The position numbers were made by a program, and so were the translations under genes. Positions 1-64,000 of a stretch of DNA of 64,000 bases are shown here, in pieces (positions within the stretch are counted from its first letter, which is position 1; the number at the start of each line of letters is the position of its first letter). The notes under the pieces were generated by a model. That model ran no database searches. It saw nothing but the letters and a program-made list of their open reading frames with translations, and had not been told where the DNA came from. Source of the stretch: Microbacterium salitolerans. GTDB taxonomy: Bacteria > Actinomycetota > Actinomycetes > Actinomycetales > Microbacteriaceae. The DNA is taken from positions 310,001 through 374,000 of the forward strand of contig NZ_JAHKSH010000001.1 in assembly GCF_019720895.1 (NCBI RefSeq), in the 5' to 3' direction.

Positions 1-503
1 ACTTCGCGGCGACGTTCCTCGACATCGCGGGGCTGGACCCCGCGGAGGCGCTGCCGACGTCGCAGGGGCGCAGCTTCCGCCCGCTGCTGCGCGGCGAGGA
101 GGTCGCCGACTGGCCCGACGCCGCGTACTACCGCTACTGGGAGCACGACGACCCCATTCACGGCGCCCCCGCCCACTACGGGATCCGCACGGCCGACCAC
201 AAGCTCATCTACTACTACGGCGCGGGGCTCGGCGTGCCCGGAGCGTCGGACGCCGTGTTCGAGCCCGAATGGGAGCTGTACGACCTGAAGGCCGACCCGA
301 CCGAGGTGCGCAATGTCGCCGACGACCCGGCGTACGCGGGTGTCCGTGCGGATCTCGAGAAGAAGCTGGCCGCGTACCAGGAGCGCTACGACGACGAGCC
401 CTATCGCGGCGACGAGACCCCGCGCCCCGAGTGGGGTCCGTACGACGCCGAGCTCTTCGCCCGTGTCGAGGCGTACGTCGCGAAGATCCGGCAGACGAGC
501 TGA
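1..503 (+). CDS. Sulfatase, C-terminal part (cut by window edge)
   Basis: The reading frame is open from base 3 and ends with TGA at 501-503, giving 166 visible residues. The segment contains the features of the C-terminal subdomain of type I sulfatases: a stretch around YYRYWEHDD, the IRTADHKLIYYY strand in which an arginine-rich strand precedes Lys-Leu-Ile, and the ELYDLKADPTEVRN motif that closes most sulfatases. The N-terminal half with the Cys/Ser-x-Pro-Ser-Arg active-site motif lies outside the window, so the class of active-site residue cannot be read. The gene for a formylglycine-generating enzyme follows after 18 bases, which implies that this is a cysteine-type sulfatase matured by that enzyme. 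Its substrate, probably a sulfated sugar, is unknown. Confidence 0.9.
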   Translation, partial: FAATFLDIAGLDPAEALPTSQGRSFRPLLRGEEVADWPDAAYYRYWEHDDPIHGAPAHYGIRTADHKLIYYYGAGLGVPGASDAVFEPEWELYDLKADPTEVRNVADDPAYAGVRADLEKKLAAYQERYDDEPYRGDETPRPEWGPYDAELFARVEAYVAKIRQTS

Positions 504-521
504 TCTGCCAGAGTGGCCCCC

Positions 522-1481
522 ATGGGAACTGAGAGCTGCACGTGCGGATGCGGCGGGCCGTCGCGCGACTCGCTGCTGCAGGTCGGCCGGCCGCCGGCCG
601 CGCCGCAGAGCAGGAGCGAGCCCGGGGGCCACACGATCGAGCAGGCCCGCGTGCCCGCGGGATCCTTCCTCATGGGAGATCAGTCGGGTGACCGCAACCC
701 GGGCGATGGCGAGCTTCCCGTACACGAGGTGCGCCTCGACGCGTTCTCGATCGACGCGACGACCGTCACGAACGATGCCTTCGCGGCGTTCGTCGACGCG
801 ACGGGATATCGCACGGAAGCCGAGACGTTCGAGTTCTCCGCCGTGTTCCACCTCGCGCTGACGGCGCCCGACGAGGACGTGCTCGGCGTGCCACCGCAGA
901 CGCCCTGGTGGCGCGGCGTCCGCGGTGCCGACTGGCGCCGCCCGGGCGGCGCCGGATCCTCGATCGACGGCCTGGGCGACCACCCCGTCGTGCATGTCAG
1001 CTGGAACGACGCCGTCGCCTACTGCGAGTGGGCGGGGCGCCGCCTCCCGACCGAGGCCGAGTGGGAGTATGCGGCCCGCGGCGGGATCGCGGGGGCGAAG
1101 TACCCGTGGGGCGACGCGGAGGTCGACGCGGGCGGCTGGCGCGCGAACATCTTCCAGGGATCCTTCCCTCGCGAGAACACGCTCGAGGACGGATTCCTCA
1201 CCACCGCACCCGTGCGCACGTTCGAGCCCAACGGGTACGGCCTGTGGCAGCCCGTCGGCAACGTGTGGGAGTGGTGTGCGGACTGGTTCGACCCGCGCAC
1301 CTACGCGGCGTCACCCGCCGAGAACCCGACGGGCCCCGAGCGCGGCGGGGCGCGGATCCTCCGTGGGGGCAGCTACCTCTGCCACATCTCGTACTGCAAC
1401 CGCTACCGCAACGCGGCCCGCTCGCAGAACACCCCCGACTCCTCGATGGGCAACGCCGGCTTCCGCACCGTCGCGCGGTAG
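522..1481 (+). CDS. Formylglycine-generating enzyme (sulfatase-modifying factor)
   Basis: The 319-residue product oxidises the active-site cysteine of sulfatases to formylglycine. The whole FGE-sulfatase domain is present: PAGSFLMGD at about 45-53, HPVVHVSWNDAVAYC at 154-168, RLPTEAEWEYAARGG at 174-188 and the C-terminal GGSYLCHISYCNRYR, whose Cys287 and Cys292 match the copper-binding pair of human SUMF1 and the Streptomyces enzyme. These cysteines separate true FGE from the many non-catalytic relatives. It follows the sulfatase gene after 18 bp, as expected for a substrate-enzyme pair. Unusually, residues 6-10 read CTCGC, a cysteine cluster reminiscent of the N-terminal cysteine pair of human SUMF1. 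The ATG at 522 is chosen; an in-frame GTG at 513 would add three residues, and neither has a clear ribosome site. Confidence 0.95.
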   Translation: MGTESCTCGCGGPSRDSLLQVGRPPAAPQSRSEPGGHTIEQARVPAGSFLMGDQSGDRNPGDGELPVHEVRLDAFSIDATTVTNDAFAAFVDATGYRTEAETFEFSAVFHLALTAPDEDVLGVPPQTPWWRGVRGADWRRPGGAGSSIDGLGDHPVVHVSWNDAVAYCEWAGRRLPTEAEWEYAARGGIAGAKYPWGDAEVDAGGWRANIFQGSFPRENTLEDGFLTTAPVRTFEPNGYGLWQPVGNVWEWCADWFDPRTYAASPAENPTGPERGGARILRGGSYLCHISYCNRYRNAARSQNTPDSSMGNAGFRTVAR

Positions 1482-1506
1482 GCGCGCGGGGCGGGGACCC
1501 GCCGCG

Positions 1507-1887: not shown

Positions 1888-1963
1888 GTGTCGAGGATAT
1901 GGGGTGTCTGGGTGCGGATCCGGTATTCGGCCCGCTGCGCCGGATCGGGCGCGCGTTCGGGAG

Positions 1964-2022
1964 GAGATCTGCGTTCGGGAGGACCTTATCGGCGGTGTTC
2001 CTCCTTCGTTGTGCAGATCTCC
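1964..2022. repeat. Intergenic dyad repeat, copy 1 of the GAGATsTGC family
   Basis: Two arms, GGAGATCTGC at 1964-1973 and GCAGATCTCC at 2013-2022, are exact reverse complements and enclose a second potential stem (GGGAGGA near 1977-1983 against TTCCTCC near 1999-2005). The sequence aligns with the larger element at 18816-18903: both read GAGGAGAT, then TGCGTTC, then GAGGAC on the left side. It lies between a LacI gene and an SdpI gene on the same strand and could end transcription of the regulator gene. Confidence 0.7.
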
Positions 2023-2063
2023 GCCGGAGTGCGCGTTCGGTTCTCCGGAGCGCGCTCGCCGCG

Positions 2064-3210: not shown

Positions 3211-3229
3211 AACCTTCGGAGGTGCCTCA

Positions 3230-5660: not shown

Positions 5661-5675
5661 GCGCCTCATGACGAC

Positions 5676-13635: not shown

Positions 13636-15051
13636 ATGACCTCAGTTGCCGCAGTCGACCTCGGAGCCACGAGCGGCCGCGTGATCGTCGGCCGCTTCGC
13701 GGGCGGATCCATCCAGATGGACACCGTCGGACGGTTCCCGAACAAGCCGGTCATGACGCCGAGCGGCCTGCACTGGGACCTCGTCGCGCTCTACCGCGGG
13801 GCCCTCGACGGGCTGGCCGAAGCGTTCCGCGTCGCCCCCGACATCGCATCGATCGGCGTCGACTCGTGGGCTGTCGACTATGCGCTCATGCGCGGCGACC
13901 GCATGCTCGGAACGCCCTTCCACTACCGGGACGAGCGCACGGCAGCCGGTGTCGACGCCGTGCACGCCGACGTCCCGTTCGACGAGCTGTATCGCCGCAG
14001 CGGCCTCCAGTTCCTGCCGTTCAACACGCTCTATCAGCTCGCCTGCGAGCGCGATCACGGCATGCTCGACCTCGCCGACGGCATGCTTCTCGTGCCCGAC
14101 CTGATCGGCTGGATGCTCACGGGCGAGAAGGTCGCGGAGCGCACCAACGCCTCCACGACCGGTCTGCTCGACGTCACGACGAAGCAGTGGGATCTCGACC
14201 TCGCGTCGCGCCTCGGCGTGCCCGAGCGGATCCTTCCCCGCCTCGTCGACCCCGGCGACACCGTCGGATCCCTCCTTCCGCACGTCGAGAAGGAGCTCGG
14301 CGGATCCGCGCCCGTCGTGGCCGTCGGATCCCACGACACCGCGTCGGCAGTGCTCGCCGTCCCGATGAAGGCCGACCGGGCCGCGTACATCTCCTGCGGC
14401 ACATGGGGGCTCGTGGGCGTCGAGACCGAGCGGCCCGTCCTCACCGACGCGGCGCGCGAGGCGAACTTCACGAACGAGGGCGGCGTCGACGGCCGCACCC
14501 GGTTCCTGCACAACGTCATGGGTCTCTGGCTGCTGAGCGAGGCGATCCGCGAGTGGGAGCGTCCGAACGGCGCCGAGAAGATCGACCTGCCTGCGCTGCT
14601 GGCCGAGGCCGCGGAGGTGCGCGGCGAGGTCGGCGTCTTCGACGCCAACGACCCCGTCTTCATGCCGCCCGGAGACATGCCGGGCCGCATCGCGACCTGG
14701 CTGCGTGAGCACGACCAGCCCGTCCCGCAGACCAAGGCGGAGTTCGCCCGCTCGATCGTCGAGAGCCTCGCCGAGGCGTTCGCCGGAGCGGTGCGCACGG
14801 CCTCCGAGCTCTCCGGTGTGCCCGTCGAGACGATCCACATCGTGGGGGGCGGATCCCTCAACGAGCTGCTCTGCCAGCTCACGGCCGACCGATCGGGGAT
14901 TCCGGTGGAGGCCGGCCCCGTCGAGGCCACGGCGATCGGCAACCTCCTCGTCCAGGGCCGCACCGCGGGCTTCGTCTCGGGCGACCTCGAGGCGCTCCGC
15001 GCCGTCGTGGCAGACGCCTTCCCGCCGAAGCGCTACACCCCGCGCGCCTGA
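13636..15051 (+). CDS. rhaB: Rhamnulokinase
   Basis: The 471-residue FGGY kinase phosphorylates L-rhamnulose to rhamnulose 1-phosphate. Rhamnulokinase-specific sequences are AVDLGATSGRVI at residues 6-17, SIGVDSWAVDYAL near residue 75, YRDERT near residue 97, LPFNTLYQL near residue 130 and CGTWGLVG near residue 254, with the C-terminal GGGSLNELLCQL adenosine loop. It follows the aldolase/dehydrogenase gene after 265 bp containing two dyad repeats and is closed by a hairpin at 15062-15094. All five Gly-Ser dipeptides in this protein are encoded as GGATCC, a striking codon-pair preference seen in much of the window. Confidence 0.94.
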   Translation: MTSVAAVDLGATSGRVIVGRFAGGSIQMDTVGRFPNKPVMTPSGLHWDLVALYRGALDGLAEAFRVAPDIASIGVDSWAVDYALMRGDRMLGTPFHYRDERTAAGVDAVHADVPFDELYRRSGLQFLPFNTLYQLACERDHGMLDLADGMLLVPDLIGWMLTGEKVAERTNASTTGLLDVTTKQWDLDLASRLGVPERILPRLVDPGDTVGSLLPHVEKELGGSAPVVAVGSHDTASAVLAVPMKADRAAYISCGTWGLVGVETERPVLTDAAREANFTNEGGVDGRTRFLHNVMGLWLLSEAIREWERPNGAEKIDLPALLAEAAEVRGEVGVFDANDPVFMPPGDMPGRIATWLREHDQPVPQTKAEFARSIVESLAEAFAGAVRTASELSGVPVETIHIVGGGSLNELLCQLTADRSGIPVEAGPVEATAIGNLLVQGRTAGFVSGDLEALRAVVADAFPPKRYTPRA

Positions 15052-21713: not shown

Positions 21714-22763
21714 ATGCACGGCGAATACAAGGTGCCCGGGGGGAAGCTCGTGGTCGTCGACCTCGAGGTGGCCGAGGGGCGGATCACCGATTTCGCGCTC
21801 GCGGGCGACTTCTTCCTCGAGCCGGATGACGCGCTCCTCGACATCAATCAGGCCGTCACCGGCCTGCCCGACACCGCCGACGTGCCGACGATCGCGACGG
21901 CCATCCGCCGCGCGCTCCCCGTCGGCGCGCAGCTCCTCGGCTTCACGCCCGAGGCCGTCGGCACCGCCGTGCGCCGCGCGCTCGTGACGGCGTCGACGTG
22001 GACCGACTTCGCGTGGGAGATCATCGACGACCCCGCCGTCTCGCCCCTGATGAACCTCGCCCTCGACGAGGTGCTCACCGAGCGCGTCGGCGACGGCCTC
22101 CGCAAGCCGACGCTGCGCATCTGGGAGTGGGACAGGTCGGCCGTCGTGATCGGATCCTTCCAGTCGTTCCGGAACGAGGTGGACCCGGAGGGGGCGAAGC
22201 GGCACGGCTTCGACGTCGTTCGCCGCATCTCGGGCGGCGGCGCGATGCTCATGGGCGCCGAGCAGATCATCACCTACTCGCTCTACGTGCCCGCCTCGCT
22301 CGTCGCCGGGCTCACGTTCGCCGACTCGTACGCGTTCCTCGATGACTGGGTGCTGCAGGCGCTGAAGAAGGTCGGCATCGAGGCGACGTACCAGGGGCTC
22401 AACGACATTGCGAGCCCGCAGGGCAAGATCGGCGGCGCCGCGCAGAAGCGCCTCGCCAACGGCGGGATCCTGCACCACGCGACGCTCAGCTACGACATCG
22501 ACGGCGAGGTCATGACCGAGGTGCTGCGCATCGGGCGCGAGAAGCTGAGCGACAAGGGCACGACGTCTGCCGCGAAGCGGGTGGATCCCATCCGCAGTCA
22601 GACGGGCATGGAGCGCCGCGCGATCATCGACGAGTTCATGAGCGAGTTCCAGACGTTCACGGGCGCGACGCGCGGATCCGTCACGCCGGAGGAGCTCGCG
22701 CAGGCCGAGGAGCTCGTGCGCACGAAGTTCTCGACCGACCAGTGGCTGCACCGCGTCCCGTGA
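21714..22763 (+). CDS. Lipoate-protein-ligase-like protein with N-terminal accessory domain
   Basis: The 349-residue protein belongs to the biotin/lipoate ligase family. Residues about 5-85 resemble the small accessory domain (KVPGGKLVVVDLEV and the DINQAVTGLP end) that follows the catalytic domain in E. coli LplA or is a separate subunit LplB in archaea; here it comes first. The catalytic domain begins near residue 95, with NLALDEVL, the lipoyl-binding RRISGGGAM near residue 163 and SPQGKIGGAAQKR near 237, whose lysine is the family's invariant substrate-binding residue. It would attach or transfer lipoate to dehydrogenase complexes. Its stop overlaps the GTG start of the DNA methyltransferase gene by 4 bp, which couples two apparently unrelated functions. 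Confidence 0.86.
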   Translation: MHGEYKVPGGKLVVVDLEVAEGRITDFALAGDFFLEPDDALLDINQAVTGLPDTADVPTIATAIRRALPVGAQLLGFTPEAVGTAVRRALVTASTWTDFAWEIIDDPAVSPLMNLALDEVLTERVGDGLRKPTLRIWEWDRSAVVIGSFQSFRNEVDPEGAKRHGFDVVRRISGGGAMLMGAEQIITYSLYVPASLVAGLTFADSYAFLDDWVLQALKKVGIEATYQGLNDIASPQGKIGGAAQKRLANGGILHHATLSYDIDGEVMTEVLRIGREKLSDKGTTSAAKRVDPIRSQTGMERRAIIDEFMSEFQTFTGATRGSVTPEELAQAEELVRTKFSTDQWLHRVP

Positions 22764-23707
22764 CCGTCCTCGATCCCGCCCTGCAGAGGGGCCTCAGCAG
22801 GGCCGCGCCCGTGGCGATCCACCACGGAGACAATCTCGAGGTCATCCAGACGCTGCCGGACGGCGCGTTCACGATGATCTACCTGGATCCGCCGTTCAAC
22901 ACGGGCCGCAAGCGCCAGCACACGACCCAGCGGGTCACGCACGCCCCCGACGCCGTGCACATCGATGCCGTCGAGGACGACCCCGACGGCGCGCTGTTCG
23001 GATCCGACTTCCTCCACGCGACCGAGAACCCCGTGTGGAACGGGTTCCACGGGCGCAGGTACGAGCGGATCCGCCAGACGCTCACGACGTTCGACGACCG
23101 CTTCGACGACTACTGGTCGTTCCTCGAGCCGCGCCTCAGCGAAGCGTGGCGCCTGCTCGCCGACGACGGCACGCTCTACCTGCACCTCGACTACCGGGAG
23201 GCGCACTACGCGAAGGTCCTCCTCGATGTCGTGTTCGGGCGCGACCACTTCCTCAACGAGATCATCTGGGCGTACGACTACGGCGCCAAGAGCCGGTCGC
23301 GCTGGCCCACGAAGCACGACACGATCCTCGTGTACGTGAAGGACCCGGCCAAGTACCACTTCGACTCCGACGCCGTCGACCGCGAGCCGTACATGGCACC
23401 GGGCCTCGTCGACGCCGACAAGGCCGCGCGCGGCAAGCTGCCCACCGACGTGTGGTGGCACACGATCGTGCCGACGAGCGGATCCGAGCGCACGGGGTAT
23501 CCGACGCAGAAGCCCGAGGGGATCCTCACGCGCATGGTGCAGGCGTCGACGCGGCCGGGAGACCGGGTCCTCGACTTCTTCGCCGGCTCCGGCACGACCG
23601 GAGCCGTCGCCAGCCGCCTCGGCCGCCAGGCGGTCCTCGTCGACGGCAGCCCCCGCGCGATCGAGGTCATGCAGGAGCGCATGCCGCATGCCGTGGTGAT
23701 CCGGTAG
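22760..23707 (+). CDS. Orphan site-specific DNA methyltransferase (beta group, N6-adenine or N4-cytosine)
   Basis: The 315-residue enzyme transfers a methyl group to an exocyclic amino group in DNA. Motif IV is YLDPPFNTG (Asp43-Pro-Pro-Phe46) and the SAM-binding motif I, FFAGSGTTG, comes late (about residue 273-281), so the order IV then I marks the beta group that includes HinfI, CcrM and BamHI methylases. DPPF favours adenine over cytosine, but this is not decisive. No restriction endonuclease or specificity gene is adjacent, so it appears to be solitary. It overlaps the lipoate-ligase-like gene by 4 bp (GTGA). The target is unknown; because GGATCC is hugely over-represented in the window, that palindrome is a testable candidate. 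Confidence 0.88.
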   Translation: MTVLDPALQRGLSRAAPVAIHHGDNLEVIQTLPDGAFTMIYLDPPFNTGRKRQHTTQRVTHAPDAVHIDAVEDDPDGALFGSDFLHATENPVWNGFHGRRYERIRQTLTTFDDRFDDYWSFLEPRLSEAWRLLADDGTLYLHLDYREAHYAKVLLDVVFGRDHFLNEIIWAYDYGAKSRSRWPTKHDTILVYVKDPAKYHFDSDAVDREPYMAPGLVDADKAARGKLPTDVWWHTIVPTSGSERTGYPTQKPEGILTRMVQASTRPGDRVLDFFAGSGTTGAVASRLGRQAVLVDGSPRAIEVMQERMPHAVVIR

Positions 23708-23761
23708 CGGATCCCCGGATCCTCTGGCGCGGCTGCGCGTCCGCCCCCTAGCGTGTGGACC

Positions 23762-24754
23762 ATGCGCTTCGGAACCTTCATCCCGCAGGGCTGGCGATTC
23801 GATCTCGTCGGCATCGATCCGGTCGCCCAGTGGCAGACCATGCAGTCCCTCGCACGCCGCGCGGATGAGGGGTCCGCGTGGGAGTCGATCTGGGTCTACG
23901 ACCACTTCCACACGACCCCGGTGCCGAGTGCGGAGGCCACGCACGAGGCGTGGACGCTGATGTCGGCGTTCGCGGCATCGACGAGCCGCGTGCGGCTCGG
24001 CCAGATGTGCACGTGCATGGGCTACCGCAATCCCGCCTACCTCGCGAAGGTCGCGGCGACCGTGGACCACGTGTCGGGAGGCCGCCTCGAGATGGGGATC
24101 GGCGGCGGCTGGTACGAGCACGAGTGGCGCGCGTACGGCTACGGCTTCCCCGAGGTGCCCGACCGCCTGCGCGCGCTCCGCGAGGGCGTCGAGATCATGA
24201 AGCAGGCGTGGGAGACCGGATCCGCGACGCTCGACGGGCGCTACTTCCAGGTCGACGGCGCGATCGTGCAGCCGCAGCCTCTGCAGGATCCGTCGATTCC
24301 GTTCTGGATCGCCGGCGGCGGCGAGAAGGTGACGCTGAAGATCGCGGCGAAGTACGCGCAGTACACGAACTTCGCGGGCGGCGACATCGAGACCTTCCGG
24401 CACAAGGACGGCGTGCTGCGTGGGCACTGCGATGCGCTCGGCCGCGACCACACGGAGATCACCCGCACGACCGACATCAACGTCATCATCGACGAGACGG
24501 AGGCCGAAGTCGCCGATCGCGTCGCGGCCGTCGGCGCGCGCCTGAAGCCCCATCTCGGCGATGCCTACGAGGGGGCGATGAAGAACTACGGCTCGGGCGT
24601 CCCCACGGTCGGCACCGTCGAGCAGGTGACGGAGCACCTCCACGCGATGAAGGCCGCCGGCGTCGACTACACGATCGCCTACTTCCCCGAGATGGCCTAC
24701 GACACGAGCGGCGTCGAGCTCTTCGAGAAGAAGGTCATCCCCGAGCTGTCGTAG
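23762..24754 (+). CDS. LLM-class F420-dependent oxidoreductase
   Basis: The 330-residue protein is a luciferase-like TIM-barrel flavin/F420 enzyme. FGTFIPQGW at the start, SIWVYDHFH near residue 40, VRLGQMCTCMGYRNPAYLAK near residue 78 and GRLEMGIGGGWYEHEWRAYG near residue 108 follow the F420-dependent branch found in actinobacteria. The start ATG at 23762 is chosen over a GTG nine bases upstream. It is the last gene of a rightward run and converges on a carboxylesterase gene across a dyad repeat. The substrate is unknown. Confidence 0.9.
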   Translation: MRFGTFIPQGWRFDLVGIDPVAQWQTMQSLARRADEGSAWESIWVYDHFHTTPVPSAEATHEAWTLMSAFAASTSRVRLGQMCTCMGYRNPAYLAKVAATVDHVSGGRLEMGIGGGWYEHEWRAYGYGFPEVPDRLRALREGVEIMKQAWETGSATLDGRYFQVDGAIVQPQPLQDPSIPFWIAGGGEKVTLKIAAKYAQYTNFAGGDIETFRHKDGVLRGHCDALGRDHTEITRTTDINVIIDETEAEVADRVAAVGARLKPHLGDAYEGAMKNYGSGVPTVGTVEQVTEHLHAMKAAGVDYTIAYFPEMAYDTSGVELFEKKVIPELS

Positions 24755-49054: not shown

Positions 49055-49129
49055 GAGACACGGGGGAAAGCGCGGAGACAAGGACGATCTCGCGTCAGGG
49101 CGAGATTCTCAGCGATGTCGCCGTGTCTC
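49055..49129. repeat. Intergenic dyad repeat, GAGACACGG family, copy 2
   Basis: GAGACACGG at 49055-49063 pairs with CCGTGTCTC at 49121-49129, and the interior CTCGC/GCGAG forms a second stem. The TGA stop of the GH42 gene (49128-49130 on the plus strand) lies in the right arm. The right half aligns with 37785-37824. Confidence 0.75.
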
Positions 49130-51143
49130 AGCGCACCGCCCGAACGAACGCGAAGCCCTGCGGATCCAGCGTGCGGGTGCCGAAGGGATTCTCCGAGCCG
49201 AGCACGGTGCCGGGGGCCGTCACCTCGACGGCCTCGTCGCCGTGGTTGATGAGCGTCAGGAGGTCGCCGCGGCGGGCCACCTCCACCCCGGCGGGAACCT
49301 GGTCGAGTTCGCCGGAGACGCCCGCGTCGTCGAGCAGCGCGTCGAGCACGCCGTCGAGATCGGCGGGCATCGTCGCGAGGTACCAGGCGGATCCGTCGCC
49401 GTGCGCGCGACGCGTGAGGGCGGGGCGCCCGGCGGAGGGGCCGGTCTCGAAGGTCGCGAGCACCTCGGCGTCGTCGGCCCAGACGGACTCGGCGACGATC
49501 GTGCCGGAGCCTGCGACGCGCCCCGCGAAGCGGGCGTACGCGCGCGGGTCCTCGGCGGCGTCCGCGGCGGACCCCTCCTCGCCGGCGCGCTCGGCGATGC
49601 GCTCGCGGGCGGGCGGCACGAGCGCGCGGAAGTCTTCGAACGCGACGCCGAGCACGGGCCCGAGCTGCGTGAGGAAGCCGCCGTCGCGGAAGCGGTCGTT
49701 GTCGTCGACGATGTCGGTGAAGGGACCGGCCGCCAGCACGCCGCCGCCCGCGACGAAGGCGCGCAGGGCGTCCGCCCCGGAGGAGCGCAGCAGGTACAGG
49801 AACGGCGCGATCGCCAGCCGGTAGCGCGCGTCGACCTTCTCGGGCGGCACGATGTCGACCATGACACCGCGCCGCACGAGCGCGCCGTGCCAGTCGCGCA
49901 CGAGCTGCAGGTAGTCGAGGCGCGTCGGGTGGCCCTCGCCCTCGACGGCCCACCAGTTCTCCCAGTCGAACACGAGGGCGACGGGGGCGTCGTCGCCGGG
50001 CGCAGGGAGGGCGGGCAGCTCGGCGAGGCGCTCGCCGAGGGCGACGGTCTCGTTCCAGGTGCGCGTGCGCGTCCCGGCGTGCGGCACCATCGCCGAGTGG
50101 AACTTCTCGGCGCCCGCACGCGACTGGCGCCACTGGAAGAACATGATCCCGTCGGCGCCGCGGCCGATCGACTGTGCCGTCTCGGCGGCGAGCTGGCCCG
50201 GCTTCTTCGACGGGTTCGTCGGACGCCAGTTGACGGCGTCGGTCGCCTGCTCCATGAGGATCCACGGGGTGCCGCGCTTGAGCGAGCGCACGAGATCGCG
50301 CTGGAACGCGGTGGTGAGGGGGCGCTGCGGATCCAGCGGATCCGGGTAGCAGTCGTCGGTGATGACGTCGATGTGCGGCGCCCACTGCGCGTAGTTCGCG
50401 GGTGGGAACGCGCCCATCATGTTCGTCGAGATGGGCTGCGTCGCGCCCGCCTGGCGGATGATGTCCCGTTGCATCAGGTAGACCTCGAGCCACATGTCCG
50501 ACATGAAGCGCTTGAAGTCGAGGACCTGCGAGGGATTGCGGATGAACGGAGCCTTGCGCGGCGGGAAGACCTCCTCGAGCGATGCGTACCGCTGCGACCA
50601 GAACCCCGTGCCCCACGCGTCGTTGAGCTGCTCGACGGATCCGTATCGGCCCGCCAGCCAGCGTCGGAACGCGTCGCGCGCGCTGTCGGAGAACTCCTCG
50701 TTGAGGTGGCAGCCCAGCTCGTTGTCGACGTGCCACATGACGACGCCCGGGTGGTCGCCGTAGCGCTCGGCGAGGCGCCGCACGAGTTCCGATGCAAGGC
50801 GGCGCCAGGTGGGGGAGGACGGCGAGTGGTGCTGACGGGATCCGTGCCAGTACGGGGCGCCGTTCTCGTCGGCCGCGAGGATGTCGGGATGCGCCGCCGT
50901 CATCCACGGCGGCGCCGAGGCCGTCGCGGTCGCGAGGTTCACGCCGATGCCGCCCGCGTGCAGCAGGTCGATGATGCGGTCGAGCCACGCGAAGTCCCAC
51001 TCGTCGGGGCCGGGCTGGATCCGCGACCACGAGAAGATGCCGAGGCTCACGGTGGTGACGCCCGCCTCGCGCATGAGCGCGACGTCGTCGGGCCAGATGT
51101 CCTCGGGCCACTGGTCGGGGTTGTAGTCAGCGCCGTACAGCAC
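49128..51143 (-). CDS. Beta-galactosidase, GH42
   Basis: The 671-residue enzyme cleaves beta-galactosides, such as galactan side chains. The barrel starts with YGADYNPDQWPEDIW; Glu142 in WHVDNELG is the acid/base and Glu298 in ILMEQATDAVNW the nucleophile, both in the positions expected for GH42. A central trimerisation domain and a small C-terminal beta domain follow. The start is a GTG at 51143 with AAGGAGA just upstream. The gene ends the operon binding protein, permease, permease, DUF624, GH42, which mirrors the Bacillus subtilis yes locus, where YesZ is GH42. No signal peptide is present. Confidence 0.95.
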   Translation of the reverse strand: MLYGADYNPDQWPEDIWPDDVALMREAGVTTVSLGIFSWSRIQPGPDEWDFAWLDRIIDLLHAGGIGVNLATATASAPPWMTAAHPDILAADENGAPYWHGSRQHHSPSSPTWRRLASELVRRLAERYGDHPGVVMWHVDNELGCHLNEEFSDSARDAFRRWLAGRYGSVEQLNDAWGTGFWSQRYASLEEVFPPRKAPFIRNPSQVLDFKRFMSDMWLEVYLMQRDIIRQAGATQPISTNMMGAFPPANYAQWAPHIDVITDDCYPDPLDPQRPLTTAFQRDLVRSLKRGTPWILMEQATDAVNWRPTNPSKKPGQLAAETAQSIGRGADGIMFFQWRQSRAGAEKFHSAMVPHAGTRTRTWNETVALGERLAELPALPAPGDDAPVALVFDWENWWAVEGEGHPTRLDYLQLVRDWHGALVRRGVMVDIVPPEKVDARYRLAIAPFLYLLRSSGADALRAFVAGGGVLAAGPFTDIVDDNDRFRDGGFLTQLGPVLGVAFEDFRALVPPARERIAERAGEEGSAADAAEDPRAYARFAGRVAGSGTIVAESVWADDAEVLATFETGPSAGRPALTRRAHGDGSAWYLATMPADLDGVLDALLDDAGVSGELDQVPAGVEVARRGDLLTLINHGDEAVEVTAPGTVLGSENPFGTRTLDPQGFAFVRAVR

Positions 51144-51880: not shown

Positions 51881-52771
51881 TCAGCCCTTCAGGCCCTGCG
51901 TCGCCACGCCGTTGACGAGGAACCGCTGGAACACGATGAAGAACAGCAGGACCGGGATCAGGGCCACGAAGGAGGCCGTGACGGTCGCGCCGTAGTCGCT
52001 CACTGCGGTCTGGTCGTTGTACAGGCGCAGGGCGATCGGCAGCGGGTAGTTCTCCGGGCTGTTCAGGTACAGCAGCGGCGCAAGGAAGTCGTTCCACGTC
52101 CAGATGAACGTGAAGATCGCGCTCGTGATGAGGGCGGGCTTGATCAGCGGAACGATGATCGACCAGAAGATGCGCACGTGACCGGCGCCGTCGATGCGGG
52201 CCGCCTCGTCCATGTCGCGGGGCAGGTTGCGGATGAACTGCACCATGAGGAAGACGAAGAACGCCTCGGTGGCGAGGAACTTCGGGAGGATCAGCGGCAC
52301 GAACGTGTCGACGAAGCCCAGCTGGTTGAACCAGATGTACTGCGGGATGATCACGACGTGGACCGGCAGCAGGAGCGTGCCGATCATCGCCGCGAAGAAG
52401 ATCCCGAGGCCCTTGAACTTGATGCGCGCGAACGCGTAGGCCGCGAGGGCCGACGACATCACCGTACCGATCACGGCCGACACGGCGATGATCGTGGAGT
52501 TGAGGAAGAAGCGCCACATCGGAACCCCGCCGATGCCCTCGGAGACCGTGGCGTAGTTCTCGAGCGTGGGGTTCCACGGGATGAGGCTCTGGTTCTGCCC
52601 GAACTCGGCGTTCGGCTTGAACGTCGAGGCGAACAGCCACGCGAGCGGGTAGATGACGATCGCGGTGATGGCGAGAAGGACGACGAACCAGATGACGGTC
52701 TGCCAGCCGCGGCGGGTGATCCGGCGGCGCGGGGCCGTCTGCCCGGTCGTGACGAGTTCTGTGGCGCTCAT
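51881..52771 (-). CDS. Carbohydrate ABC transporter permease, MalG type
   Basis: The 296-residue membrane protein has six spans and the EAA coupling loop MDEAARIDGAGHVRIFWSII near residue 195, which contacts the ATPase. The C terminus FQRFLVNGVATQGLKG is typical of MalG/LacG proteins. It overlaps the upstream MalF-type permease by 4 bp. No ATPase gene is in the operon, so the importer probably uses a shared MsiK-type ATPase encoded elsewhere, as is usual in actinobacteria. Confidence 0.93.
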   Translation of the reverse strand: MSATELVTTGQTAPRRRITRRGWQTVIWFVVLLAITAIVIYPLAWLFASTFKPNAEFGQNQSLIPWNPTLENYATVSEGIGGVPMWRFFLNSTIIAVSAVIGTVMSSALAAYAFARIKFKGLGIFFAAMIGTLLLPVHVVIIPQYIWFNQLGFVDTFVPLILPKFLATEAFFVFLMVQFIRNLPRDMDEAARIDGAGHVRIFWSIIVPLIKPALITSAIFTFIWTWNDFLAPLLYLNSPENYPLPIALRLYNDQTAVSDYGATVTASFVALIPVLLFFIVFQRFLVNGVATQGLKG

Positions 52772-53754
52772 CGGTCGTCTCCCGAGTAGTGGACCCAGTT
52801 CTTCTGGGTGCGGAACAGGATCACGGCGATGATCGCGACGGCGATCATGACGATCCAGGCGATCGCCGAGGCGTAGCCCATCTGGCCATCGGTGAATCCG
52901 CGCTTGTAGAGGTAGAGGGTGATGAAGTTCGTCATGCCGGCGGGGCCGCCGGTGCCGTTCGAGATGATGTACGCAGACGCGAACACCTGGAACGCGCCGA
53001 TCAGCTCGAGCAGCAGGTTGAAGAAGATCACCGGCGACAGCATCGGGAGCGTCACGGCCTTGAAGCGACGCAGCGCGCCGGCGCCGTCGACCTCTGCAGC
53101 CTCGTAGAGCTCCTTCGGCACCTGCTTGAGGCCCGCGAGGAAGATGACCATCGTCGCGCCGAACTGCCACACGGCGAGGAGGATCATCATCGGCACGACG
53201 AGGTTGACGTTGCCGATCCAGCCGCCGAGGTTGATGCCGAACAGCGACAGCGTGTTGTCGACGGGACCGTCGGTGCTGAACATCGCACGCCACACGATCG
53301 CGACCGACACCGAGACGCCGATGAGCGACGGGGCGTAGAACGCCGAGCGGAAGAACGCGGCGCCGCGGTCGCGGTAGTTCAGCAGCAGCGCGATCGCGAG
53401 CGCGGCCGCGAGCTTGATCGGCGTGCCGATGAACACGTAGATGAGCGTGATCTGCGCCGACTGGATGAACTGCGGGTCGTCCGAGAACAGTCGGATGTAG
53501 TTCTCGAAGCCGACCCATTCGGGAGCGGAGAAGAGGTCGTACGACGTGAAGGACAGGTACAGCGAGTACGCCATCGGCCCGAGCGTGAGGCCGAAGAAGC
53601 CGATCATCCACGGCGTCAGGAACGCGTATCCGGCGAACGTCTCTCTGAAGGTCCGCCTGCGGTGGGCAGCGGAGGACGGTGGCTTGCGCCCCGCTCCGGA
53701 TCGCTTCCCGCCGGAACCGGCGGTGACGACCGTTCTCGTCGTGCTGGTGCTCAT
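52768..53754 (-). CDS. Carbohydrate ABC transporter permease, MalF type
   Basis: The 328-residue membrane protein begins with a basic cytoplasmic tail, then six spans starting at FLTPWMIGFFGLTLGPM. The coupling loop ELYEAAEVDGAGALRRFKAV near residue 232 has the EAA motif. It follows the first binding-protein gene after 56 bp that hold a GC hairpin (53773-53801), so transcript abundance may drop there. The 4-bp overlap with the MalG-type gene indicates tight coupling. Confidence 0.93.
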   Translation of the reverse strand: MSTSTTRTVVTAGSGGKRSGAGRKPPSSAAHRRRTFRETFAGYAFLTPWMIGFFGLTLGPMAYSLYLSFTSYDLFSAPEWVGFENYIRLFSDDPQFIQSAQITLIYVFIGTPIKLAAALAIALLLNYRDRGAAFFRSAFYAPSLIGVSVSVAIVWRAMFSTDGPVDNTLSLFGINLGGWIGNVNLVVPMMILLAVWQFGATMVIFLAGLKQVPKELYEAAEVDGAGALRRFKAVTLPMLSPVIFFNLLLELIGAFQVFASAYIISNGTGGPAGMTNFITLYLYKRGFTDGQMGYASAIAWIVMIAVAIIAVILFRTQKNWVHYSGDDR

Positions 53755-53772
53755 GATCTCCCGATCGGTGGT

Positions 53773-53801
53773 GGCGGGCGGGACCAGGGATCCCGCCCGC
53801 C
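53773..53801. terminator. Intercistronic hairpin after the first binding-protein gene
   Basis: GGCGGGCGGGA at 53773-53783 pairs with TCCCGCCCGCC at 53791-53801 around a seven-base loop. Such a hairpin between binding-protein and permease genes commonly raises binding-protein abundance relative to the membrane parts by partial termination or RNA protection. Confidence 0.75.
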
Positions 53802-53810
53802 ATCGGTCAT

Positions 53811-55115
53811 TTAGTTGAGGGCGACGTTCATCTCGGTGAAGAACTGGTCGACGGCTTCGTCGACGGTCATGGTGCCGTAGCTGAGCTCGAGACCGAGCTG
53901 ACGGAACTCCTCTTCGAGGTTTCCGTAGCCGACGATCGGCACGGGCGGGGCGTCGCCGAGGCGGTCGGTGATCGACTCCTCGTAGTCCCGCACCTGCTGC
54001 GACAGCTCGTCGAGCTCGGCCGCCTCGAGGGCGGTCGTCGACGCGGGGAGACCGCGGTTGGTGCCGAAGATCTCACCCGACTCGGGGCTGTTGATGAGGA
54101 AGTCGACGAGCAGCGCCGCCGCCTCGGGGTGGTCGGTGCTCTCGGCGACCGAGTGCAGCATCGACGGCTTGAGGTAGAGGTCCTGGGCGCCTTCGACGTC
54201 GAGCGGCGGGGCCTGGAGGTTCAGCTCGGTGTAGCCCTCGCCGAGGTTCGCCAGGTAGCCGGCGCCGAAGTTGTCCCACGTGCCCTCGCTGAGCACGTTG
54301 CCCGTGTCGAAGCCGGCGAGCGGGAAGGTCTCCTCCGCCTTCTTCGCGGGGTATGCGGCGCCCGACTCGCGGATCTCGGAGCCCTGCTCCCAGAACGCCC
54401 GCAGGTCGTCCTCGGTGAAGTTCGGCTGGCCCTCGTCATCGAAGAGATCCTCGCCGTTGGCGCGCTGCTGCAGCTCGAAGAGCTGGATGCGGCCGGTCCA
54501 GTCGCTGGCACCCCAGACATCGTGGCCGCCGTCCTGCGCCGTCTCGGTGGCGTCGATGATCCACGCGCTGTAGTCCTCGTAGGTGCCGCCGGCGAAGTCC
54601 TCGACGCCGGTTTCTTCGAGCAGCTTGGGGTTGCTGAACAGGCCCCAGGCGTTGGTCGAGGTCGGGATGCCGAAGGTGCCGCCGGCGACCTCGCCGATGG
54701 CGAGGATCTGGTCGGAGAGCGGCTCGTCGTCGATCTCCTCGCCGATGTAGGGGGCGAGGTCGAGCAGGAGGCCGTTCTCGGCGTACTGGCGCAGGTACGA
54801 GTAGTCGAACTGCATGACGTCGGGGAGACCGCCTCCGGCGGCCTCGGTCTGGCGCTTCTCCCAGAAGGCGGGGAAGTCGAGGAACGAGACCTGGATCTCG
54901 ACGTTCGGGTATTCCTCGTTGAAGGCGTCGAAGACCTGGTTGTAGAGGTCGGCGCGGTCGGCGTTGCCCCAGAAGGCGAAGGTCAGGGTGATCTTCTCAT
55001 CGGGGTCGAAGCCATCGGAGTCGCCTCCGCCGGAGCTGCCGGAGCAGCTGGTGAGCAGGAGCCCGCCGGCGACTGTGACGGCCGCCGCGGCGAACAGCTT
55101 GGTGGTGCGGAACAT
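53811..55115 (-). CDS. Carbohydrate ABC transporter substrate-binding lipoprotein (first of two paralogues)
   Basis: The 434-residue protein has a lipoprotein signal with LLLTSC and a Ser/Gly linker, then a MalE-type (family 1) binding domain. It shares a long identical segment with the protein encoded at 55287: residues around WEKRQTEAAGGGLPDVMQF through YLRQYA match exactly, and 47 bases (54781-54827) are identical in DNA to 56242-56288. The ATG at 55115 follows AGAGGAC. The promoter has a TGAATCGATTCA operator, the type found before rhaM, and an AAGCGCTT operator, so the ligand is probably a rhamnose-containing oligosaccharide. Confidence 0.9.
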   Translation of the reverse strand: MFRTTKLFAAAAVTVAGGLLLTSCSGSSGGGDSDGFDPDEKITLTFAFWGNADRADLYNQVFDAFNEEYPNVEIQVSFLDFPAFWEKRQTEAAGGGLPDVMQFDYSYLRQYAENGLLLDLAPYIGEEIDDEPLSDQILAIGEVAGGTFGIPTSTNAWGLFSNPKLLEETGVEDFAGGTYEDYSAWIIDATETAQDGGHDVWGASDWTGRIQLFELQQRANGEDLFDDEGQPNFTEDDLRAFWEQGSEIRESGAAYPAKKAEETFPLAGFDTGNVLSEGTWDNFGAGYLANLGEGYTELNLQAPPLDVEGAQDLYLKPSMLHSVAESTDHPEAAALLVDFLINSPESGEIFGTNRGLPASTTALEAAELDELSQQVRDYEESITDRLGDAPPVPIVGYGNLEEEFRQLGLELSYGTMTVDEAVDQFFTEMNVALN

Positions 55116-55167
55116 CGGTGTCCTCTCGAACGACATTGTTCAGATCCGGCGTCAGCCGGGGGCGCCA

Positions 55168-55215
55168 GGGAAAGCGCTTGCCGAGGATATTAGGTCAGTC
55201 TGAATCGATTCACAA
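55168..55215 (-). promoter_or_regulatory. Promoter with two operators before the first binding-protein gene
   Basis: On the minus strand, TTGTGA (complement of 55210-55215) and TAATAT (complement of 55187-55192) are 17 bp apart and form a good promoter. The perfect palindrome TGAATCGATTCA at 55201-55212 overlaps the -35 box, and GGGAAAGCGCTTGCC at 55168-55182 lies just downstream of the -10 box. The first matches the rhaM operator at 3199-3210 in 11 of 12 bases; the second matches the AAGCGCTT class. Confidence 0.65.
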
Positions 55216-55250
55216 GGGGTGCGATCTCGTTGTCACCGGAATGTGACGGG

Positions 55251-55282
55251 GTGGGTGGGCCGATGCGAGTCGGCCCACCCAC
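55251..55282. terminator. Terminator after the second binding-protein gene
   Basis: GTGGGTGGGCCGA at 55251-55263 pairs perfectly with TCGGCCCACCCAC at 55270-55282 around a six-base loop. It lies five bases beyond the leftward stop codon at 55287, separating this gene from the importer operon. Confidence 0.85.
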
Positions 55283-55286
55283 AGCC

Positions 55287-56573
55287 TCAGTTGTCGAGGA
55301 GGACGTCGGCCTCGCTGAAGAACTGCTCGACGGCGGCGTCGACCTCCATCGTGCCGAGGCCCAGCTCCTTGCCGAGGTCCCAGAACTTCTGCTCGAGCGA
55401 GGAGTAGCCCTCGACCGGTGCGGCCGGGGCCTCGCCGAGACGGTCCTCGACCGAGGCGAGGAAGTCGGCGACCTGCTGGTCGGGACCCTCGAGGGTCGCG
55501 CCCTCGAGCTTCGTCTCGGAGGCGGGGAAGCCGAGCGACGTGCCGAAGAGCTCGCCGGCCTCGGGGCTGTTCACGACGTAGTCGAGGAAGATCGCCGCGG
55601 CCTCCGGGTGATCCGACTGCGCCGAGATGCCCATCTGGAGGCCGGACTGCTGGTACAGGTCCTGCGAGCCCTCCTCGAACGTCGGCGGTGCGACGATCGA
55701 GATGCTCTCCGCGCCCGAGTCGCCGAGGTAGCTCGCGATGAAGTTGCTCCAGCTCGCCTCGCTGGCGGTGAGGTTTCCGCCGAATCCCGAGACCGGGTTG
55801 ATCTCCTCCAGAGCCTTCTGCGGCACCACGACGCCGTCGCGGTCGGCCGCGCCGCCCTCCCAGAACTCACGCAGGTCGTCCTCGGTGAAGCCGAGCTCGC
55901 CCTCCTCCGTGAACAGGCCGCCGCCCTCGGCGCGCAGCTTCATCTCGAAGTTCTGGATGCGCTGCGTGTAGTCGGTGCCGCCGTAGACCTCGCCGTCAGT
56001 CGCCTCGGTGACCTCGGCCATCCACTCCGAGTACTCCTCGTAGGTGGTGCCGCCCGCGTAGGGCTCGATGTCGTACTCGGCGAGGATGTCGTCGTTGAGG
56101 AACACGGCCCAGGTGCTGTAGCCGAGCGGCAGCAGGTACTGCGTGCCCTCGATCTGGCCCGTGGCGAGGAGGCCGTCGGAGATCGCGGACGTGTCGGCGT
56201 AGTCCGACAGCTCGCCGAGGTCGGCCAGCAGACCGTTGCCCGCGTACTGGCGCAGGTACGAGTAGTCGAACTGCATGACGTCGGGGAGCCCGCCGCCCGC
56301 GGCCTCGGTCTGGCGCTTCTCCCAGAATGCCGGGTAGTCGGTGAACGACCCGTTGATCTTGATGTTCGAGTGCTCCTCGTTGAATGCCTCGATGAGCGCC
56401 TCGTAGCGGTCGGCGCGGTCGCTGTTGCCCCACCAGGCGAACGTCAGCTCGACGTCGGCCTCGGGGTCGTACTCGCCCCCGCCGGATCCGCCGGAGCAGC
56501 CGACCGCGAGCGCGGCGGTGAGCGCGAGAGCGCCACCCGCGAGGAGGGGGCGTCGGGTCTTGCGTGTGAACAT
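55287..56573 (-). CDS. Carbohydrate ABC transporter substrate-binding lipoprotein (second paralogue)
   Basis: The 428-residue lipoprotein (signal ending TAALAVGC) has the same MalE-type fold and many of the same residues as the protein at 53811, especially between residues 60 and 110, but diverges in the regions that line the sugar-binding cleft. It has no permease genes of its own; it is monocistronic, bounded by the terminator at 55251-55282. It probably shares the permeases at 51881-53754 and broadens the range of sugars bound. The ATG at 56573 has AAGGAGA upstream. Its promoter carries an AAGCGCTT operator but not the rhaM-type palindrome. Confidence 0.9.
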   Translation of the reverse strand: MFTRKTRRPLLAGGALALTAALAVGCSGGSGGGEYDPEADVELTFAWWGNSDRADRYEALIEAFNEEHSNIKINGSFTDYPAFWEKRQTEAAGGGLPDVMQFDYSYLRQYAGNGLLADLGELSDYADTSAISDGLLATGQIEGTQYLLPLGYSTWAVFLNDDILAEYDIEPYAGGTTYEEYSEWMAEVTEATDGEVYGGTDYTQRIQNFEMKLRAEGGGLFTEEGELGFTEDDLREFWEGGAADRDGVVVPQKALEEINPVSGFGGNLTASEASWSNFIASYLGDSGAESISIVAPPTFEEGSQDLYQQSGLQMGISAQSDHPEAAAIFLDYVVNSPEAGELFGTSLGFPASETKLEGATLEGPDQQVADFLASVEDRLGEAPAAPVEGYSSLEQKFWDLGKELGLGTMEVDAAVEQFFSEADVLLDN

Positions 56574-61819: not shown

Positions 61820-61857
61820 TGGGTTCTCGCTGGATCCTCAGCGGCTCGGGCAGAGAC

Positions 61858-62871
61858 CTACGGCCGCGGGCGCGCCGTCGACGAGCGCACGACGAGCTCG
61901 AACGGCATCGGCTCGGGGGCGGGAGGGGCGTCGGCGCCGGGCTCGAGCTCGCTCATGAGGAAGTCGACGGCGAGGGCGCCCTGGCGGCGGGGGTGGTGCG
62001 CGATCGTGGTGAGGCCGAAGAAGTCGGCCATGTCGTGGTCGTCGACGCCGACGATGGACACGTCGTGGGGCACCACGAGCCCGAGATCGCGGGCGGCGAG
62101 GATCGCGCCGAACGCCATCTCGTCGCTGGCGGCGAAGATCGCGGTCGGCCGCTGTGCGGCGGGGGATCCGAGAAGCTGCTTCGCGGCGCGGTAGCCGCCG
62201 GGCATGGTGAAGTCGGCGCCGACGATCAGCGTCTCGTCGATGTCCAGGCCGGCGGCGGTCAGCGCGTTCTCGTATCCGCGGCGGCGCTTGGTGGGCAGGT
62301 GGAAGTCGAGATCGCTGGCCGAGTCGCCGCCGATCAGCGCGACGCGCGTGTGCTCGAGGCCGAGCAGATGGCCGGTCGCCAGCTCGGCGGCGGCGACATC
62401 GTCGACGGCGAGCGTGCGGACGCCCTCGATCGGGCCGCCGACGCCGACGAGGGGCTTGTTGAGGTCGTGGAGGCGCTGCACCTCGCTCTCGGTGAGCTCG
62501 AGCGAGACGGCGATGACGGCGTCGACGCGCTGGCGCAGGAGGAACTGCTCGAAGACCGTCGTGCGCGGGGTGCCGCTTCCGGCGAGGTTGTAGAGCGTGA
62601 CGTCGTAGCCCGACTGCATGAGGCGCTGCTGCGCGCCGTCGAGCACCTGCGTGAAGAACCACTTGTCGAGGAACGGCAGCACGATGCCGACGTTGCGGTT
62701 GCGCCCGCTCGCGAGCGTCGAGGCCGCCTGAGAGACGACGTAGCCGAGGCTCTGCGCCGCCGCCATGACCTTCTCGCGTGTGGATGAGGACACGGATCCG
62801 CGTCCGGACAGGGCGCGGGACACGGTCGCCGTCGAGACCCCAGCCGCCTCGGCCACCTCGGTGATGCTCAT
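61858..62871 (-). CDS. LacI-family regulator, probable repressor of alpha-glucoside genes
   Basis: The 337-residue protein has the LacI helix-turn-helix [20 protein letters not shown] at residues 2-21, the GRGSVSS hinge, and an effector domain with [20 protein letters not shown] near residue 65 and [20 protein letters not shown] near the C terminus. The latter two segments resemble maltose and trehalose regulators in actinobacteria. It lies 103 bp downstream of the GH13 alpha-glucosidase on the same strand, which supports a maltose-type role. It converges with the LacI gene at 60770. Confidence 0.92.
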
Positions 62872-62974
62872 GAGCGCCTATCTTCCCACTGTCGTCGAGG
62901 GGCGCGACTGCGCCCCGGCTCGCGCCCCACGTCCCGGTAGAGGGATGGGCGCGGGCCGGGGCGACGTCATGCGA

Positions 62975-64000
62975 TCACGCCTGCGTGAGCCATACGGTCG
63001 TATCTGTCGGGATCGCGTCGCCGTCGAGCGCGTCGCTCGCCACGAGCACCTGCGCGCCCACGGGGAGGGCGACCGGATCCGCGCCGAGGTTCGCGACGAC
63101 GGTCACGGTCCCGACGCGGAACGCCAGCGTCTGCGCGGGGAGGCCCTCGATCCACTCGAGGGTCTGAGTGGCGGTGTCGTGCGCGCGGCGGAGGCGCAGC
63201 AGGGTTCGGTACAGCTCGAGCGTCGACGACGGATCCCCGACCTGCCGGTCGCGGGCGACATTGGCCCACATGTCGGGCTGGGGCAGCCAGGAGGATCCGG
63301 TCTCGTTGAACCCGTACGCGGGGCGGTCCGCCTCCCAGGGGATCGGCACGCGGCAGCCATCACGACCGTATCGTTCGCCCTTCATTCGGAACCAGGTCGG
63401 ATCCTGGCGCGCGTCGTCGGGCAGGTCGATGACCTCGGGCAGGCCGAGCTCCTCGCCCTGGTAGATGTACGCGGATCCGGGCAGCGCGAGCATGATGGCG
63501 GTCGCGGCGCGGGCGCGACGCAGCCCCACCACGGGATCCGGCTGGCCGGGTGAGGCCGGGCCGATGCCGTGGCCCTGCGGGAAGTCGGATCCGAGCGCGA
63601 GGCGCGTGGCGTGGCGGATGACGTCGTGGTTCGACAGCACCCACGTCGATGGCGCGCCGACGCTGCCGAAGGCGCGCAGCGACTCGTGGATGACCTCGTG
63701 CAGGGCCTGCGGATCCCAGTCGCTCATCACGTACGAGAAGTTGAAGGCCTGGTGCATCTCGTCGCGGCGCACCCACTGGGCGATCTCGTCGACCGTGGGC
63801 ATCCACGCCTCGGCGCAGAGCACGCGCTCGCCGTCGTAGGTCTCGAGGAGCCGACGCCAGTCGCGGTACACCTCGTGGACGCCCTCCTGTCCCCAGTAGG
63901 GGACGGGCTCGATGCCGCCCATCGAGTCGGCGTCCTCCGGCGGCGTGTAGTCGGGCAGCTCGTCGGCCTTCACGAGGCCGTGCGCCACATCGACGCGGAA
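62975..64000 (-). CDS. Alpha-glucosidase, GH13 (cut by window edge)
   Basis: The frame is open to the right edge and gives 341 residues of the C-terminal part. The first visible residues, FRVDVAHGLVK, hold the catalytic aspartate nucleophile; VLCAEAW supplies the acid/base glutamate, and WVLSNHDVIRH the transition-state aspartate, in GH13 order. This matches the alpha-glucosidase subfamily that cleaves maltose and maltodextrins. The conserved YQGEELGLPEV follows. Its stop precedes the LacI gene by 103 bp. The upstream part and any ABC genes lie beyond the window. Confidence 0.94.
   Translation of the reverse strand, partial: FRVDVAHGLVKADELPDYTPPEDADSMGGIEPVPYWGQEGVHEVYRDWRRLLETYDGERVLCAEAWMPTVDEIAQWVRRDEMHQAFNFSYVMSDWDPQALHEVIHESLRAFGSVGAPSTWVLSNHDVIRHATRLALGSDFPQGHGIGPASPGQPDPVVGLRRARAATAIMLALPGSAYIYQGEELGLPEVIDLPDDARQDPTWFRMKGERYGRDGCRVPIPWEADRPAYGFNETGSSWLPQPDMWANVARDRQVGDPSSTLELYRTLLRLRRAHDTATQTLEWIEGLPAQTLAFRVGTVTVVANLGADPVALPVGAQVLVASDALDGDAIPTDTTVWLTQA

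Follow-up and report, generated by a model that had tools for sequence, protein, structure and literature searches.

Lineage-specific iterated hexamers in Microbacterium and their association with a putative specificity loop of a solitary DNA methyltransferase

Why does the palindrome GGATCC occur so often in a 64,000-nucleotide stretch of the Microbacterium salitolerans genome, and what keeps it there? The stretch, called the window throughout, covers positions 310,001 to 374,000 of contig NZ_JAHKSH010000001.1 (C5:310001-374000 in our numbering of this 3.46 Mb genome, G000). Our answer is that GGATCC was probably collected by the genome as the target of an orphan DNA methyltransferase encoded in the window, that loop changes in this enzyme would have moved its specificity, and that the sites would then have been held. 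The element in question is the following.

GGATCC sites: positions 1 to 64000, no strand assigned; 198 copies, one per 323 bp.

An earlier note on this DNA had counted about 195 copies by hand and expected about 20 from base composition; the exact values were 198 and 21.5. An order-4 Markov model, a null inflated by the GGATCC sites themselves, predicted 115.5 copies, and the resulting ratio of 1.71 was the highest among palindromes occurring more than once. Genes were our own calls (open frames picked by third-position G+C). Coding GGATCC amounted to 165 copies, compared with 35.6 ± 4.9 after shuffling synonymous codons within genes (protein and codon use retained) and 65.7 ± 5.2 after a stricter shuffle retaining the neighbouring bases of each codon, an excess of 26 and 19 standard deviations, respectively. 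The Markov and codon-shuffling models, which the note had named as a check, all fell short. The non-coding part (7.8 kb, which may contain missed genes) held 34 copies against 2.6 expected from base composition. The excess was found in all codon phases (69, 44, and 52 copies in phases 0, 1, and 2), on both gene strands, and in spacers, as had been claimed. The Gly-Ser codon details given earlier were also exact: GGA-TCC encoded all five Gly-Ser dipeptides of the rhaB-like FGGY kinase (13636-15051) and three of the six in GH42 (49128-51143). Distances between sites were Poisson-like in the window and in 14 further stretches, which ruled out regular spacing. At 52001-56000 a single GGATCC was seen in 4 kb, against 5-20 in the other 4-kb bins; this part contains a solute-binding protein gene (53811-55136) and was perhaps recently acquired.

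The excess extended to the rest of the genome, where its absence would, by the earlier note, have refuted the observation. The whole genome contained 6,614 copies, a mean of 1,913/Mb against 3,094/Mb in the window. In 14 stretches of 20 kb taken from contigs other than C5, GGATCC was in every case at 2.8-5.2 times the synonymous null, and 16 pooled stretches gave 4.23 times; the thinnest 20-kb stretch seen (L015) had 950 GGATCC/Mb. One small contig (L333, G000:C1, 5,430 bases, 55% G+C) had one GGATCC and is foreign or plasmid DNA.

Among 367 Microbacterium genomes, 24 had at least 3,610 GGATCC and the remainder 341-2,491, with few in between. The densities between the groups were 1,003/Mb in G361, 992 in G187, 755 in G172, and 732 in G269 (sizes of all genomes except G000 were rounded to 0.1 Mb, and densities are counts divided by those sizes). 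The rich genomes fell mainly into two clades of the enzyme tree described below, A (including G000) and B, with 1,615-2,346 GGATCC/Mb in nine A and twelve B genomes (G187, at 992, and G004, at 492, excluded). M. gubbeenense and M. azadirachtae were among the rich species by their 20-kb loci. Relative to the synonymous null, GGATCC reached 4.80 in A, 4.77 in B, and 0.92 in 25 stretches of poor Microbacterium species. The GGATCC excess is a property of a few Microbacterium lineages. The earlier statement that GATC is not enriched in other contexts held in part. CGATCG had 117 copies in the window and a ratio of about 1.5-1.7 to the synonymous null whether the species were rich or poor (A 1.48, B 1.68, poor species 1.52), which is a background enrichment; as its ratio was similar in high and low genomes, a simple GATC effect was ruled out. 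In Frondihabitans sp. Leaf304 (L128), outside the genus, GGATCC stood at 2.1 times the synonymous null; the enzyme there has Gly-112 and H at residue 187.

The poor species had a word of their own. Hexamer tables covered 483 kb of A, 201 kb of B, and 579 kb of poor species. In poor Microbacterium GCATCC scored highest among all hexamers (1,257 vs 576 under the synonymous null, a ratio of 2.18), and the corresponding ratios in A and B were 0.54 and 0.96. This result indicates that poor species do have a favoured word, a non-palindromic one. GGATGC/GCATCC dropped from 1,219 per Mb per strand in poor species to 272 in A and 448 in B, while the other one-base neighbours of GGATCC stayed at 0.80-1.49 of the poor-species level in high genomes. 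In the highly iterated palindromes of cyanobacteria deviations avoid the central AT; in high Microbacterium genomes the one-base neighbours were scarcest at positions 2/5 and then 3/4, a ranking confounded by the fading of the old motif, which differs at position 2. Whole-genome sums of GCATCC and GGATGC were 437-731/Mb in the nine A genomes and 799-1,080/Mb in the twelve B genomes, with a median of 2,158/Mb in 40 poor Gly-112 genomes. GCATCC was also raised in Agromyces (2.04), and in pooled Humibacter, Herbiconiux, and Diaminobutyricibacter (2.73), and to a smaller degree in Cryobacterium (1.66) and Curtobacterium (1.20).

A third word was found in G154 and G282, which were sampled as low in both of the others: GGAACC/GGTTCC came out on top at 3.5-4.1 times expectation (20 kb each). 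GGAACC counts in the 367 genomes singled out G154, G282, and G355 (1,547-2,169/Mb; the next, G064, had 780/Mb), and these three form clade C. Around the words themselves, GCATCC of ordinary species had the preferred surrounding CGGCATCCG (27 low Microbacterium loci, L081 and others), and GGAACC of clade C read cGGAACCa (L276, L277). The favoured words may thus exceed six letters. No other motif stood out in G152 and its kin, a group of nine in which GCATCC was at a middle level.

The proposed source of the word lies inside the window:

Positions 22742 to 23707, forward strand: solitary beta-class DNA methyltransferase, 321 amino acids, of the N6-methyladenine (m6A) type by resemblance and proposed to recognise GGATCC (PF01555, 2.2e-44).
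Positions 23072 to 23086, forward strand: codons 111-115 (R-Q-T-L-T), the stretch that varies with the motif state, between the DPPF motif and the next helix, in the place of CcrM Loop-2B.
Positions 23288 to 23302, forward strand: codons 183-187 (K-S-R-S-R), the CcrM Loop-45 equivalent by sequence alignment to CcrM.

The class was assigned by motif order, with DPPF preceding FAGSGTT. Relatives with solved structures in PDB were M.RsrI (6e-27), which recognises GAATTC, and CcrM (8e-20). The loops were mapped onto Loop-2B and Loop-45 by sequence alignments, and for Loop-2B sections of PMC6787082 were used as well. Two methyltransferase families were searched in G000. PF01555 matched only the window enzyme, and the cytosine-5 methyltransferase family (PF00145) had no match; a cytosine-5 enzyme was rejected as the cause, being absent from G000 and present in 26 of 55 genomes, high and low. 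The window enzyme itself had a match at E ≤ 1e-40 in 334 of the 367 genomes, rich and poor alike, so its presence alone does not explain the GGATCC excess. A gene restricted to high genomes was thereby ruled out for the PF01555 enzyme; the loop differs instead.

Residues 111-115 were mostly R-G-x-L-x in ordinary species, RQTLT or RETLT in clade A, RELLH in clade B, and RKTVS in clade C. In a first comparison of rich and poor genomes, residue 112 was Gly in 96 of 97 poor-labelled rows (the 97th was a second piece of the rich genome G279); rich genomes had Gln or Glu there. Residue 112 was then read in 133 of the 367 genomes. It was Gly in 106, none of them switched; Gln or Glu in 23, with 21 GGATCC-rich; Lys in three, all GGAACC-rich; and Ser in one, G080, which was unswitched. 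Clade C was spotted by its motif first, and the enzymes of G154 and G282 fetched afterwards had K112 within RKTVS; G355 had the same loop. The rich genomes without a reading at residue 112 were G278, G360, and G361, and G278 has a contig-edge fragment that matches the B type. Residue 186 was S in A and T in B; it was rejected as a switch on its own, since S is found there in low species too. An unusual loop, FGERREYVDRF, was seen in the core methyltransferase of G214 (L294), a genome low in GCATCC (963/Mb) and with no clear favoured word in 20 kb.

In the enzyme tree the rich enzymes formed two separate, well supported clades, A and B. The tree gave three label changes; the third was attributed to L174, a second G279 match identical to L170 but labelled low, and L174 was left in the tree. 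The upstream neighbour of the enzyme offered a second tree, and both neighbours are listed here:

Positions 21714 to 22763, forward strand: lplA, lipoate-protein ligase family, upstream neighbour whose 3' end overlaps the methyltransferase start (PF21948, 2e-42).
Positions 23753 to 24754, forward strand: luciferase-like monooxygenase family gene, downstream (PF00296, 9e-48).

The methyltransferase looks like a core gene, because lplA accompanied it (within 10 kb on either side) in 79 of 80 named loci, mostly Microbacteriaceae by title; the luciferase-like gene did so in 26 of 80. Relatives found in plasmid and phage searches were all below 60% identity. By Pfam neither neighbour is a restriction endonuclease; no endonuclease search was made elsewhere in the genome. 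One locus titled Planococcus sp. (L080, JASDDH010000003.1) had 71% G+C and a Microbacterium-type methyltransferase (68%), and is probably mislabelled or contaminated. The lplA tree recovered clade A as the enzyme tree did, with the Gly-112 genomes G209 and G148 among its sisters; the comparison covers A and B, since the clade C loci were short and yielded no lplA. By lplA, G064 was the first branch in A, and G004 and G187 were set off from the rest of B. By the enzyme, the first branches within B were G187 and G004. These positions allow, and do not prove, a lag between enzyme and word.

Retention of sites was followed by codon alignment of orthologues from the stretches flanking the methyltransferase, with the window added for G000. 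Comparisons were ordered pairs of related species in both directions and are not independent events; low sets were treated alike. GGA-TCC was kept in 304 of 637 comparisons in A and 488 of 727 in B, compared with 4 of 89 and 4 of 34 in two low sets. The overall hexamer identity was.339,.469,.337, and.344 in A, B, and the two low sets, respectively, and A is the matched comparison because its identity is similar to that of the low sets. At synonymous positions, a check that the earlier note had suggested, the Asp codon GAT within GGATCC was kept in 198 of 262 cases in A and 268 of 338 in B (76-79%), against 27-30% elsewhere. In the low sets the values inside GGATCC (15 of 47 and 13 of 44, 30-32%) were close to those elsewhere (33-34%). 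Protein composition was also shifted. Gly-Ser dipeptides were at 1.37 and 1.51 of expectation in A and B and 1.06 in both low sets; the values for Ser-Gly were 1.08, 1.03, 1.01, and 1.02.

The origin of the sites was visible in the same alignments. At most new GGATCC sites low species have ordinary codons, often two bases away; at phase-2 sites they carried CGACCC in 39-48% of cases. Old GCATCC sites had mostly turned into ordinary codons, and conversion of GCATCC to GGATCC in place was notable at one codon phase only (12-25% of partners), so it was rejected as the general route. We read the pattern as a slow turnover in which every site is subject to a pull, and not as old sites being converted.

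Three favoured hexamers, parallel loop changes, agreement between the enzyme and lplA trees for A, and site retention in A and B were observed here. That the favoured word changes between lineages along with one part of the enzyme suggests that the enzyme decides the word. Judged from sequence, the methyltransferase would methylate these hexamers and the loop would set its specificity, and the sites would persist through weak purifying selection acting on the methylated mark, not through mutation bias. In ordinary Microbacterium this enzyme has Gly at residue 112, and the favoured word is GCATCC/GGATGC. Altered residues in the DNA-facing loop (111-115) would have shifted the specificity to GGATCC in two lineages and to GGAACC in a third. 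After each switch the old sites would decay into ordinary codons, and new sites would rise at thousands of places and be held. The methylated words would be worth keeping, or would spread; most likely the mark would identify self DNA, or a strand, along the whole chromosome to some further protein. A stronger statement is that a single loop of a vertically inherited orphan methyltransferase dictates the six-letter word of the genus, with at least three switches, thousands of sites turned over, protein composition shifted, and living species that represent the state before the change (G004), the transition (G064, G187), and the state after it. We give this version an even chance.

Several genomes weigh against the enzyme as the sole determinant of the word. 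G004 has a B-type enzyme, yet showed GCATCC at 2.04 and GGATCC at 0.82 times the null. G064 (64.5% G+C) has an A-type enzyme with values of 0.91 for GGATCC, 1.03 for GCATCC, and 1.60 for GGAACC. G187, the relative of G004, was intermediate in 13 contigs (GGATCC 1.95, GCATCC 1.13) and gave GGATCC at 1.04 in 52 kb of two other contigs. G080, with S112 and H115, retained the GCATCC state. Sisters of clade A that lack the enzyme were mildly GGATCC-rich (G361 2.74, G061 2.00, G269 1.53, and G353 1.97 from 8 sites), as was G209 with a Gly-112 enzyme (1.70, 8 sites). G360 and G361 counted as GGATCC-rich with no core enzyme found, and G147 showed GCATCC at 3.13 times in 20 kb with the core enzyme undetected. 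Gly-112 enzymes also occurred in genera with little or no GCATCC preference: Frigoribacterium (0.92), Labedella (0.83), and Curtobacterium (1.20). Finally, enzyme-less genomes were only slightly lower in GCATCC than Gly-112 genomes, with medians of 1,850 vs 2,158/Mb (19 vs 40 genomes, p=0.003; p=0.03 after removal of three A sisters). The 19 came from 20 listed (G278 was dropped because it has a fragment), and 13 more were unlisted. These misfits (G004, G187, G064, the enzyme-less A sisters, G209, G147, and the small GCATCC gap) mean that a second factor or slow decay is needed.

Among the alternatives, a drive through DNA uptake is a possible, if rather unlikely, explanation. By analogy, the methylated hexamer would mark kin DNA for natural transformation, and sites would accumulate by molecular drive without local benefit. 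The ingredients are similar: a solitary methyltransferase, a site every few hundred bases, Poisson-like spacing, and retention between species. A precedent exists in Campylobacter jejuni, where, according to the cited part of PMC8468864, DNA uptake requires methylation by CtsM of a motif written RATTY. That the excess is general, spanning every codon phase and the spacers, is of no help in telling the explanations apart.

We consider it unlikely that the methyltransferase followed another protein. A nucleoid protein or regulator reading GNANCC could hold the sites, with the loop of the enzyme adapting to it. Such co-adaptation would accommodate the mild GGATCC excess of enzyme-less A sisters, the strong GCATCC excess of enzyme-less G147, and the switched enzymes without enrichment in G004 and G064, but two proteins would have to switch to the same word three times.

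Biased repair or mutation is quite improbable. Here functionless sites would be created or protected by methyl-directed repair, as in Elhai's model for the highly iterated palindromes (HIPs) of cyanobacteria, by a Vsr-like process, or by a lower mutation rate. Sites in spacers and in all phases, their Poisson-like spacing, and the association with a methyltransferase fit this explanation, and a lower mutation rate at methylated sites would yield retention too. Eighteen genomes, G000 and representatives of A, B, and C among them, were searched for the MutS_V domain (PF00488), and none had it, while the control was found in 11 of 14 known genomes; methyl-directed MutS repair is therefore not expected, and the cyanobacterial HIP repair model does not carry over. 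In addition, one-base neighbours other than the old motif were not drained in high genomes, many new sites arose where low species carry ordinary codons differing by two bases (CGACCC above), and the protein sequence itself was shifted towards Gly-Ser.

An artefact of composition, codon, or codon-pair use, which high G+C and the raised CGATCG background might have suggested, can be dismissed on the null models, from which the window departs by 26 and 19 standard deviations, and on the genus-wide counts, in which congeners of similar G+C (0.71 vs 0.70) showed GGATCC at 0.92 times.

The data suggest that the target of a methyltransferase can influence which codons, and even which dipeptides, are used throughout a proteome. 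Microbacterium offers replicate switches in one genus, in named species such as M. gubbeenense; MutS was not found, and the candidate switch comes down to a few residues of one enzyme. With these, it can be asked directly whether methylation drives the accumulation of its own target. The genus could also help to separate selection, DNA uptake, and repair as the force holding the sites, and the function of HIP1 is still unsettled.

Among known systems, the relatives with solved structures, CcrM (GANTC) and M.RsrI, are beta-class m6A enzymes whose recognition words differ from those of Microbacterium. According to the cited sections of PMC6787082, CcrM also has a C-terminal DNA-binding domain beyond the part matched by the window enzyme. 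M.AspU41ORF21335P, which places m6A at GGATCC in Arthrobacter sp. U41 (PMC5356067), has the specificity and modification proposed here and an actinobacterial host, as judged from its description. CtsM, likened by its description in the cited part of PMC8468864, is likewise a methyltransferase with a frequent genomic target. Unlike a restriction-modification system, the locus has lplA and a luciferase-like gene beside the methyltransferase and no endonuclease, and unlike a Dam-like mark for mismatch repair, the word occurs in genomes without PF00488 (0 of 18).

In the sections of Elhai (2015, PMC4390886) drawn on here, HIP1 is GCGATCGC, and among the alternate HIPs GGGATCCC of Synechococcus OS types A and B comes closest to the present case. 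A HIP is described there as a short GC-rich word that reaches about 500-2500 copies per Mb, gives way to another word in some lineages, and occurs in genomes encoding a putative cognate methyltransferase; methyl-directed repair is offered as a model, and competing ideas on HIP1 function persist. The Microbacterium word shares the density range (1,615-2,346/Mb), the lineage-specific replacement, and the putative cognate methyltransferase of the HIPs as those sections present them. The earlier note's view that GGATCC behaves like HIP1 is borne out by its genome-wide spread, its presence in all phases and spacers, the failure of the nulls, the synonymous retention, and the link to a solitary methyltransferase; the emphasis on a palindrome needs correction, since palindromicity is not essential. 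We found no report of such an iterated element in this group in the open PMC literature, judged partly by title among the matches listed. The host belongs to Actinomycetota, not to cyanobacteria, and the element is hence not HIP1 itself. Unlike the HIPs, two of the three Microbacterium words (GCATCC, GGAACC) are non-palindromic, GGATCC being the palindromic one, and a single m6A-type orphan enzyme, apparently vertical, has a putative recognition loop that changes with the word. Cyanobacteria already provide examples of a highly iterated word that is tied to a methylase and replaced in particular lineages. What Microbacterium adds is another phylum, words that are not palindromes, loop changes that occurred in parallel in a single enzyme of apparently vertical descent, and the absence of MutS.

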